From: Fimbriimonadia bacterium
GTDB taxonomy: Bacteria > Armatimonadota > Fimbriimonadia > Fimbriimonadales > JABRVX01
Length of the DNA stretch: 58,640 nt
Assembly (NCBI GenBank): GCA_039961735.1
Contig: JABRVX010000045.1
Span: forward strand, 1-58,640
Direction of reading: 5' to 3'
Positions 19,040 to 55,238 of this stretch are shown here, piece by piece. How positions within the stretch are numbered: position 1 is the first letter of the stretch; every line of letters starts with the position of its first letter. Position numbers and translations under genes: made by a program. The notes beneath the pieces were generated by a model. That model saw only the letters and a list, made by a program, of their open reading frames with translations, was not told where the DNA came from and ran no database searches.

Positions 19040-19064
19040 GTCATGCTGAGCTCGTCGAAGCATG
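19040..19064 (+). repeat. Solitary copy of the REP-like palindrome
   Basis: One copy of the repeat (arms TCATGCT and AGCATG, loop containing GAGCTCGTCGA) in the 148-base gap between the coiled-coil gene and the SpoU methyltransferase. It belongs to the family that clusters around the GIY-YIG gene at 55 kb. Confidence 0.8.
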
Positions 19065-53122: not shown

Positions 53123-54127
53123 ATGAGCATTGGATGCGCCGTCGTCGGCTTCGGCGGCCGATTCGCTATGGGCCTGCACCACGCCAAGCAGGTAATGGAC
53201 ACCCCCGGGCTGCACCTGGCCGCCGTGTACGACATAGACCCCGAGCGCCGAGAGATTGCCCGGCAGGAACTGCCCGAAGTTACGGTCCACGACACTTACG
53301 AGGCGGTGCTCGCCGATCCGGGTGTAGACATGGTGATCCTCGTGACCCCGCACGACACCCACGCCCCGATGTCCATAGCTGCCAGCAAGGCGGGCAAGCA
53401 CGTGCTTACCGAGAAGGTCATGTGCCTCGACGTTGCCGAGGCAGACGCAATGATCGCTGCCGCGCGCGAGGCGGGCAGAATGCTCTCCGTGTACCAGAAC
53501 CGGCGATGGGACCATGACTATCTGACCGTCCGAAAGGTGGTCTCTTCGGGCCTGCTCGGCGACGTGTTCCACGTAGACAGCTCCGTCAACGGTTGGTGGA
53601 AGCCTTCGGGCTGGCGCGGATCCCGTGCGGCAGGCGGAGGAATGCTGTACGACTGGGGAGCGCACCTCTTCGACCAGGTCGTCCAGATGAACCTGCCGTC
53701 GCTACCCACTTCCGTCTTCGCCAGCCGCGCCCATCGGGTGTGGATGGACGTGGATGTGGACACACAGAACAGCGTGATGGTGCTCTTCGACAACGGCGTC
53801 ACCGCGTGCATCGACGTCGGATGCATCAGCCGCACACAGCGGTCCCGATGGCTGGTGAGAGGGGAGAAGGGAGCACTGCACCTGCCGGATTGGGACACCG
53901 CGACCGCGCAGGTCGAGATGAACGGCGTGCTCGGGTCGCTGAAGGTCGAGATGGAGAAGGACGACTGGAACGCGCTCTACCGAAACGTGTCGGCCCACCT
54001 GAACGAGGGCACCGAGCTGCTCGTGAAGCCAGAGGAGGTGCGCATCGGCGTCGCCTGCATCGAGGCCGCTATGAAGTCCGCCGAGCGCGGCGAGTCGGTT
54101 CGCGTGGAGCTTCCCGCATTGCCTTGA
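53123..54127 (+). CDS. Gfo/Idh/MocA-family NAD(P)-dependent dehydrogenase
   Basis: A 334-residue oxidoreductase. The Rossmann start is GCAVVGFGGRFAMGLHHAKQ, followed by DIDPERREIARQE and VILVTPHDTHAPMSIAASKA. The EKP motif is EKV here (HVLTEKVMCLDVAEADA), which may alter nicotinamide contacts. The C-terminal alpha/beta domain has the usual GGGMLYDWGAHLFDQVVQMN sheet. Substrate is probably a sugar or inositol. The last codons (VELPALP) are repeated in tandem after the stop, so its 3' end has been duplicated. Confidence 0.9.
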   Translation: MSIGCAVVGFGGRFAMGLHHAKQVMDTPGLHLAAVYDIDPERREIARQELPEVTVHDTYEAVLADPGVDMVILVTPHDTHAPMSIAASKAGKHVLTEKVMCLDVAEADAMIAAAREAGRMLSVYQNRRWDHDYLTVRKVVSSGLLGDVFHVDSSVNGWWKPSGWRGSRAAGGGMLYDWGAHLFDQVVQMNLPSLPTSVFASRAHRVWMDVDVDTQNSVMVLFDNGVTACIDVGCISRTQRSRWLVRGEKGALHLPDWDTATAQVEMNGVLGSLKVEMEKDDWNALYRNVSAHLNEGTELLVKPEEVRIGVACIEAAMKSAERGESVRVELPALP

Positions 54128-54365
54128 GTCGGGGCGTTGGCGACCCAGATTGGCGATCGGATTGCTCCGATGAGACGCTGCGCATGGAGCTTCCCGCATT
54201 ACCGTGATTCGGCTCGTCGGCGAACCGGATCGGTGGCGGATTGCTCCGATGAGACGCTGCGCATGGAGCTTCCCACATTACCGTGATTCGGCTCGTCGGC
54301 GAACCGGATCGGTGGTCGGATTGCTCCGATGAGACGCTGCGCATGGAGCTTCCCGTATTGTCTTG
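54105..54365. repeat. Tandem 79-80 bp repeat seeded by the dehydrogenase 3' end
   Basis: Copies begin at 54105, 54185, 54264 and 54344, each opening with TGGAGCTTCCC, the last codons of the dehydrogenase, and containing GGATTGCTCCGATGAGACGC. The first copy is in the gene; three partly diverged copies follow the stop. This is a recent local expansion rather than a dispersed repeat. Confidence 0.85.
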
Positions 54366-54438
54366 AGGCCAAGCCGCATTCACGGGCTGGAGGGCCGGTT
54401 GCCGTAATTCCGTCGTCCTGCGGACCCGGCCCGGGTCC

Positions 54439-54725
54439 GTCATGCTGAGCCTGTCGAAGCATGACACCGATCCCCGCCTCCCTGCCGGGGCGACCCGCCA
54501 TGTTCTCCTACGCCCCCACCGTCCGCGAACCCCACCAACGGGCGTGGCGGTAGACCGTCATGCTTCGACAGGCTCAGCATGACGTTAGCTTCGACAGGCT
54601 CAGCATGACGGTACCGGGCGCGGCTGGCCTTCGCACGATTGGTCTTGCGGCCGAACGCGTATCTCGGCGAAGCACGCCCACCCACACGCCTCCATCCCGT
54701 CATGCTGAGCCTGTCGAAGCATGAC
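54439..54725. repeat. REP-like palindromic repeats on the 3' side of the GIY-YIG gene
   Basis: Copies at 54439-54465, 54557-54583 (with an attached 26-bp unit 54584-54609) and 54699-54725. Arms are GTCATGCT/AGCATGAC around the asymmetric loop GAGCCTGTCGA; the copies at 54439 and 54699 read forward and those at 54557-54609 read in reverse. Forward copies are followed by the extended block ACCGATCCCCGC. All four lie within the extended reading frame of the nuclease gene. Confidence 0.9.
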
Positions 54726-55027
54726 ACCGATCCCCGCTCCCTCTTGCTGTAGGACCTAGACAACGCGGGGAGGTCCTCCAGGCGCCCTTCAATCAGGGCC
54801 AGCTTCTTCTCCCGTCGCCAGCCCTTGATCTGTTTCTCAGCGGTGATCGCTTCCGCCATGGTCCCGAAGTGCCCCACCCACACACACTCGCACGGTCCGT
54901 ACTTCCGGGTGAACTCTCCGCCCGCACCGGCGTGGTTCGCGCCGAGCCGCACCTCGGCCTGAGCCGTGACTCCCGTGTAGAACCGGCCGTCTATGCATCT
55001 CAGGATGTACACTGCAGGTGACTTCAT
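54440..55027 (-). CDS. GIY-YIG nuclease embedded in REP-like repeats
   Basis: A 195-residue frame. Residues 1-80 are a GIY-YIG domain of the small UPF0213 type: AVYILRCIDGRFYTGVTAQA (the GIY-YIG strands, here YIL and FYTG), the Arg in EVRLGANHAGAG, and the catalytic Glu in FGTMAEAITAEKQIKGW. Such nucleases nick DNA. The rest of the frame is translated repeat sequence (SCFDRLSMTG, HAEPVEANVM), so the original stop was lost or the tail is non-functional. The ATG at 55027 lies 31 bases inside a repeat copy at 55058-55084, and the opposite-facing copy at 54699 lies just past the domain. The core may be about 95 residues. Confidence 0.82.
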   Translation of the reverse strand: MKSPAVYILRCIDGRFYTGVTAQAEVRLGANHAGAGGEFTRKYGPCECVWVGHFGTMAEAITAEKQIKGWRREKKLALIEGRLEDLPALSRSYSKRERGSVSCFDRLSMTGWRRVGGRASPRYAFGRKTNRAKASRARYRHAEPVEANVMLSLSKHDGLPPRPLVGFADGGGVGEHGGSPRQGGGDRCHASTGSA

Positions 55028-55057
55028 TGCATTTATCCGACAACGCGGCGGTAGACC

Positions 55058-55238
55058 GCCATGCTTCGACAAGCTCAGCATGACGGTACCGGGCACGGCG
55101 GTAGACCGTCATGCTTCGACAGGCTCAGCATGACGTTAGCTTCGACAGGCTCAGCATGACGTTAGCTTCGACAGGCTCAGCATGACGTTAGCTTCGACAG
55201 GCTCAGCATGACGTTAGCTTCGACAGGCTCAGCATGGC
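55058..55238. repeat. REP-like repeats on the 5' side of the GIY-YIG gene, with a tandem array
   Basis: Full copies at 55058-55084 and 55108-55134, both in reverse orientation, then four 26-base units (55135-55160, 55161-55186, 55187-55212, 55213-55238) of the form GTTAGCTTCGACAGG plus CTCAGCATGAC. The tandem units have lost one palindrome arm. There are no unique spacers, so this is not a CRISPR array. The 55028-55316 stretch holds nothing else. Confidence 0.92.

Follow-up and report, generated by a model that had tools for sequence, protein, structure and literature searches.

We propose that a small GIY-YIG nuclease and the CGTC-tagged hairpins surrounding its gene constitute a two-part mobile repeat system, in which the nuclease would recognise, nick and spread the hairpins, and we assign this reading a probability of roughly 70%. 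It builds on the association of gene and repeats, the specificity of nuclease subfamilies for repeat types, a hairpin with compensatory changes, the sharp CGTC ends of the repeat units and the presence or absence of whole units at orthologous sites; moreover, no gene other than that of the nuclease is a constant companion of the repeats. From these observations, we infer that the hairpin is cut by the nuclease and owes its spread to it.

In the whole 58,640-nucleotide stretch analysed here, referred to as the window, ten exact copies of the core CTTCGACARGCTCAG lie in both orientations between positions 54445 and 55232 around a PF01541 gene, in agreement with the sequence-only reading, which had counted about ten palindrome copies within 800 bases. 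When up to two mismatches are allowed, the window contains 13 copies compared to 0.28 expected, a number reached by no shuffle. The palindrome comprises 27 bp with the arms GTCATGCT and AGCATGAC and an 11-nt loop. Four of the ten copies are perfect palindromes, one is near-perfect and five lack the left arm. Full palindromes (GTCATGCT-11-AGCATGAC) are located at 54439–54465 (minus strand) and 54557–54583 (plus strand), followed by a partial copy with TTAG in place of the left arm (54585–54611, plus strand). The immediate 3′ bracket of the gene is a full palindrome on the minus strand (54699–54725), and its immediate 5′ bracket is the near-perfect palindrome on the plus strand (55058–55084, with a GCCATGCT arm and CAAG in the loop), about 30 bp from the start codon, so that the gene indeed lies between oppositely oriented palindromes as had been claimed. 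A further full palindrome (55108–55134, plus strand) opens a tandem array of four of the copies without left arm, which are spaced by 26 bp (55135–55238, plus strand; cores at 55140, 55166, 55192 and 55218). The additional copies reported at 0.1 and 19.0 kb are present on the minus strand but not exact: two diverged cores with one to two mismatches lie within 113–153 (113–127 and 139–153) and one with a single mismatch at 19046–19060. Adjoining the cluster, positions 54092–54366 repeat the 3′ end of the upstream oxidoreductase gene (GCGCATGGAGCTTCCCGCATT...) imperfectly in tandem and represent a decaying duplication. A search of window positions 54438–54584 against Rfam returned only a sub-threshold similarity to RF02901 (Aggregatibacter sRNA 41; 40.9 bits, cut-off 97), which is apparent on both strands; this family may contain a related hairpin repeat.

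The enclosed gene is an open reading frame on the minus strand (54440–55027, ATG at 55027), whose PF01541 domain (54803–55015) matches the profile with 45.3 bits (cut-off 22.6; 47.2 bits in the genome search). Since the frame is stop-free up to the 3′ repeat and continues through it to 54440, the tail of the open reading frame after approximately residue 95 is translated repeat. The conserved Y, Y-x-G, R and E of the GIY-YIG fold are invariant in an alignment (A1) that includes the window protein, placing it in this superfamily. Its nearest sequences in the PDB are the UPF0213 proteins 1zg2 (E 4.6e-10) and 1ywl, which share with it the organization as a single GIY-YIG domain of about 95 residues.

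The check named by the sequence-only reading, a genome-wide count of the repeat, yielded 133 exact cores in the host genome (3.24 Mb, 77 contigs), while the reversed-pattern control yielded 0. Nineteen distinct head-to-head core pairs were found in the host regions read, 14 of which are spaced by exactly 78 nt. Information in these dimers amounts to 2.0 bits up to GTC/GAC and 1.5–1.7 bits at the terminal base of CGTC/GACG, but to at most 0.4 bits just outside CGTC...GACG, which marks a sharp element end. The inner spacer is partly conserved with a GCCGC motif at both sides. The host dimers are thus units resembling REPINs, with a length of about 106 bp and exact ends. No target-site duplication is apparent beside the 19 dimers or at the sufB-sufC insertion described below. 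We also considered that the REPINs arose from the present gene unit by simple internal deletion, and rejected this because the inner edges of the gene unit mismatch the spacer consensus of the REPINs: the right edge agrees with it no better than random, and the left edge matches weakly, with about 6% of random positions equalling it.

PF01541 has three matches in the host genome, namely the window gene, a second small gene (C48) and a 612-residue frame resembling UvrC. The second small gene has a different family at both sides, TGGATTCCCGCCTTCGCGGGAATGAC, of the CGTC-1 (dRS3) form, with 18 near-perfect copies in the genome, four of them around this gene. Its repeat, set beside the window repeat as the host's other pair, reads GTCATTCCCGC and conforms to the CGTC form with an 8–9 bp stem starting with AT, a 4–5 nt loop and a CCA tail. 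The only Y1 transposase gene of the host (PF01797; locus L034, C59:226–546) is RAYT-like and flanked by a third repeat family, GGGGCATGGATCGCGGCGACAGCCGACCGGGACGCGGGCC, and no window-type repeats were found around it. Hence, with two small GIY-YIG genes and one Y1 gene, each accompanied by its own family, the host genome holds three enzyme-repeat pairs.

We searched PF01541 in 291 genomes of the host's phylum and selected 60 small-frame loci by E-value irrespective of their flanks. Repeat coverage, defined as the bases under 14-mers recurring within 1 kb, was 27% within 250 bp of the gene, 18% at 250–500 bp, 4% at 500–1000 bp and 1–2% farther away, compared to 2.1%, 1.5% and then less than 1% at UvrC control loci of the same phylum. 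The repeat families vary between the loci of this sample. A simpler threshold, 28 bp of repeat sequence within 500 bp, was reached by 6 of 20 UvrC loci, so that coverage and bracketing are the better measures. Among genomes with at least ten core copies, 10 of 12 have at least two PF01541 matches versus 101 of 291 overall (the latter a hand count from the search table; Fisher p 0.0006). The two exceptions, G226 with 279 and G247 with 15 core copies, each have a single match that is probably UvrC. Since both are fragmented drafts, and contigs of G226 start in the repeat, the nuclease gene could be missing from the assembly; G226 has either lost the nuclease or has an assembly gap.

Beyond the phylum, a 22-protein diverse alignment was too varied to seed a scan, and a narrower alignment (A2) was used instead. 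The scan with the core-bearing subfamily yielded 80 named loci from Chloroflexi, Bacteroidota, Cyanobacteria, Desulfuromonadia, Beta- and Gammaproteobacteria, Gemmatimonadetes and others. At these loci, the core density is 1.7 per kb up to 250 bp from the gene, 0.32 per kb at 250–500 bp and about 0.02 per kb at distances above 1 kb (0 for the reversed control), which bears out the general impression of the sequence-only reading that the same repeats accompany small GIY-YIG genes in other phyla. A general test outside the phylum with 40 further GIY-YIG loci, taken from 40 genomes with an A2 match and consisting partly of the same genes as the 80-locus set, showed the same peak of repeats (20% versus about 1%). 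Bracketing, i.e. a 14-mer common to both sides of the gene, was observed at 31 of 48, 37 of 66 and 22 of 39 loci, compared to 0–3 when the windows were moved by 3 kb and to 1 of 16 at UvrC.

The cross-phylum hairpin has a constant loop, TTCGA..CTCA, and a variable stem with compensatory changes, and is concentrated by the gene. Of 141 loci, 81 have the generalised core TTCGA-N2..5-[GC]CTCA no farther than 700 bp from the gene, and in these 81 the five innermost stem pairs are Watson-Crick in 77, 77, 75, 59 and 54 cases, whereas shuffling gave means of 50, 32, 40, 31 and 23 and maxima of 58, 44, 50, 41 and 36, respectively. As the stem positions vary and yet pair, they document compensatory change around a conserved loop.

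We also noted where some of these genes reside. The gene of the subfamily with a GANHT-like motif and its hairpins are located within 1.5 kb of hsdM or hsdS in 36 of the 80 cross-phylum loci (L134, L163, L165, L187 and 32 others of L130–L209; L080 was also noted); both genes are near in 29 of them, typically with the unit between hsdM and hsdS. In this gap of type I restriction-modification operons, the unit may help the shuffling of hsdS, or the gap may be a preferred landing site. Tandem copies of the GIY-YIG gene 370–500 bp apart occur at L324, L344, L347, G306:C22 and G305:C17; those at the first three loci lie among repeats, as if units duplicate locally.

The type of repeat follows the nuclease subfamily. 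On a tree of 180 proteins, the presence of the core requires 17 changes, compared to 59 on average and at least 50 for shuffled labels. Proteins with the GANHT-like motif carry the core in 85 of 102 loci and other proteins in 15 of 80 (p 5e-19), an effect size to be read with care since part of the set was chosen by similarity to a core-bearing query. Seven YhbQ-like loci (AKY[FT]R motif), which serve as an internal negative control, have no flanking repeats, in contrast to the repeat-bracketed window gene. This subfamily comprises the nearest named relatives of the UPF0213 proteins among the loci sampled, so that the partner of the repeats is a set of related subfamilies and not UPF0213 in general; the expectation of repeats next to UPF0213-type genes elsewhere thus holds for related subfamilies, which are bracketed, but not for the classical YhbQ-like one. 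A GTCAT tag common to all repeat-flanked loci was considered and rejected, since, in the remaining class of repeat-bearing loci, it is found in only 21 of 49. The strict automatic detector for CGTC hairpins missed degenerate cases, so that many loci were labelled merely as repeat-bearing. Another GIY-YIG subfamily is inserted at the 3′ ends of tRNA genes with duplicated 3′ parts of the tRNA at both sides (L070, L072, L075, L081, L082, L116, L122, L127, L129, L323, L330, L344 and L347), often with a short GTCCCGA..TCGGGA palindrome where the anticodon arm would be; for one subfamily, 6 of 9 loci have a tRNA gene no more than 600 bp away, versus 9 of 173 others.

We compared these repeats to the already described CGTC REP superfamily, whose members have a CGTC head by a stem starting with AT, form head-to-head dimers and occur in tens to hundreds of copies in many phyla. 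When a REP-type protein was compared by tblastn to plasmid-class records, matches came mainly from rhizobia, sphingomonads, Azospirillum and Neisseria, all of them groups in which CGTC REPs have been reported (PMC3733652). We counted 11 CGTC hairpins at up to 500 bp from the gene in N. gonorrhoeae (dRS3-type), seven in S. meliloti, five in Rhizobium CIAT894, four in A. lipoferum, three in Shinella and two in Aeromonas, and over twelve loci their density is 3.1 versus 0.4 per kb. The hairpins around these genes are each species' own CGTC type. CGTC REPs, including the dRS3 of Neisseria, are the very repeats that surround the GIY-YIG genes in Neisseria, Azospirillum, Sinorhizobium and Rhizobium as well as the C48 gene of the host. 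The strict CGTC pattern was found near none of the genes in N. aromaticivorans, Sphingobium, Planktothrix and Spirosoma; by eye, other GTCA-headed hairpins are visible near the gene in the latter three. The window repeat shares with CGTC REPs the tag, which stands unpaired at the outer end of every dimer (1.7–2.0 bits, sharp edge), and the dimer form, but differs in loop and tail. Its stem is ATGCT/AGCAT (8 bp if GTC/GAC pair), its loop has 11 nt and its tail is GAC. Because of the 11-nt loop and the far-end GACG instead of the CCA tail, it fits none of the four described CGTC families, all defined by the stem, loop and tail found at the C48 gene. The notion of a widespread, undescribed mobile unit is therefore sustained with respect to its many phyla and its polymorphic sites, while many of the repeats belong to a superfamily that is already described.

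The closest known system to the GIY-YIG unit is that of REPs and RAYTs. As in a REPtron (REP/REPIN plus RAYT), the enzyme gene lies within its own palindromes, which belong to a family dispersed in the genome, non-autonomous inverted pairs are scattered and each family has one enzyme. Here, however, the head is CGTC rather than GTAG, and the enzyme has the GIY-YIG fold (PF01541) and lacks the HUH motif and the catalytic tyrosine of Y1 transposases. Since a Y1 enzyme is missing, the system is not a strict REPtron, though laid out alike. It also differs from classical MITEs, defined by terminal inverted repeats common with a DDE transposase element and by a target-site duplication, as no duplication is apparent.

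The insertion polymorphism anticipated by the sequence-only reading was observed at orthologous sites. In A. lipoferum 4B, a GIY-YIG gene with a hairpin pair on either side lies between sufB and sufC. The whole unit is absent in A. ramasamyi, A. oryzae and Azospirillum sp. B510, whose flanks are 95–97% identical and whose sufB-sufC gaps contain no CGTC hairpin. Hence, hairpins and gene probably arrived together. For two congeneric genomes of the host's phylum, G261 and G262, six G262 sites were searched by their left flank; at all three core sites alignable at both flanks the hairpin unit is absent in G261 (clearest for L219 versus L354), and the remaining sites end or diverge.

These sites bear on the possibility that the repeats are targets, i.e. 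that mobile GIY-YIG genes home into existing REP clusters without moving the repeats. GIY-YIG homing endonucleases insert close to their own cleavage sites, and some units do lie at tRNA 3′ ends or in the hsdM-hsdS gap, which are other repeated or conserved contexts. Those of the I-TevI type share with our unit the nuclease domain, a self-spreading gene and presence or absence at orthologous sites, but our unit has neither intron nor intein, lacks additional DNA-binding domains and is bracketed by multi-copy hairpins. A homing endonuclease cuts the element-free allele and is copied in by recombination; for our unit, presence or absence was observed at one site. As the sister sufB-sufC sites are hairpin-free, and the repeat type tracks the protein tree, homing into existing repeats is the less likely course and we consider it improbable.

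For the proposed two-part system, we envisage the following course. The unit would consist of hairpins, a single-domain GIY-YIG gene and hairpins, and copies without the gene, mostly head-to-head pairs, are dispersed over the genome much as RAYTs disperse REPINs. The nuclease would most likely recognise its own hairpin extruded as a single strand or cruciform, consistent with the conserved loop and the variable paired stem, and would nick or cut at the CGTC tag that forms the foot of the hairpin. Replication or repair by the host could then copy the hairpin-bounded DNA into new sites. To our knowledge, no GIY-YIG enzyme transposes DNA on its own. On balance, it is probable that such nucleases are dedicated mobilisers of CGTC REPs and of the related TTCGA..CTCA hairpins, moving the hairpins together with their own gene.

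Hairpin-cutting nucleases exist, and the hairpin is the conserved feature here, so that the nuclease might instead serve host maintenance by trimming or resolving hairpins and cruciforms, thereby protecting replication, and be kept near the repeats by selection or linkage. The patchy presence between sister species, the several distinct nuclease-repeat pairs within one genome and the tandem gene copies with repeats between them, which look selfish, make this a poor prospect, as does the finding that a second GIY-YIG gene is present in about 35% of the phylum's genomes while the repeat is absent from most. Weakest is the view that a RAYT or other transposase moves the repeats in trans with the GIY-YIG genes as bystanders, for although REP elements elsewhere are moved by RAYTs (PMC3733652) and the host has one Y1 transposase gene, it is strongly disfavoured by the other repeats flanking that gene, by the association with GIY-YIG genes in phylum after phylum and by the lack of any reported transposase flanked by CGTC repeats (PMC3733652).

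Di Nocera et al. (2013) described CGTC REPs without a dedicated transposase and left the enzyme to future work; they report no transposase gene flanked by these repeats and never mention GIY-YIG (PMC3733652). We found no literature linking GIY-YIG genes to REP repeats, although priority is uncertain as preprints and subscription papers were outside our search. Our comparison of genes and flanking repeats suggests that small GIY-YIG nucleases are the missing enzyme that spreads this large repeat class, including dRS3, a major source of genome plasticity in Neisseria (PMC3733652), and makes them the leading candidate for the mover of CGTC REPs. A GIY-YIG partner renders the question of the CGTC REP enzyme directly testable by using the domain, which has about 95 residues, together with synthetic hairpins. 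If the two-part system holds true, GIY-YIG would be a second type of enzyme beside RAYTs that spreads REP elements, which would explain the several palindrome families in one genome and provide a function for many proteins whose sole annotation is 'GIY-YIG nuclease family protein'.
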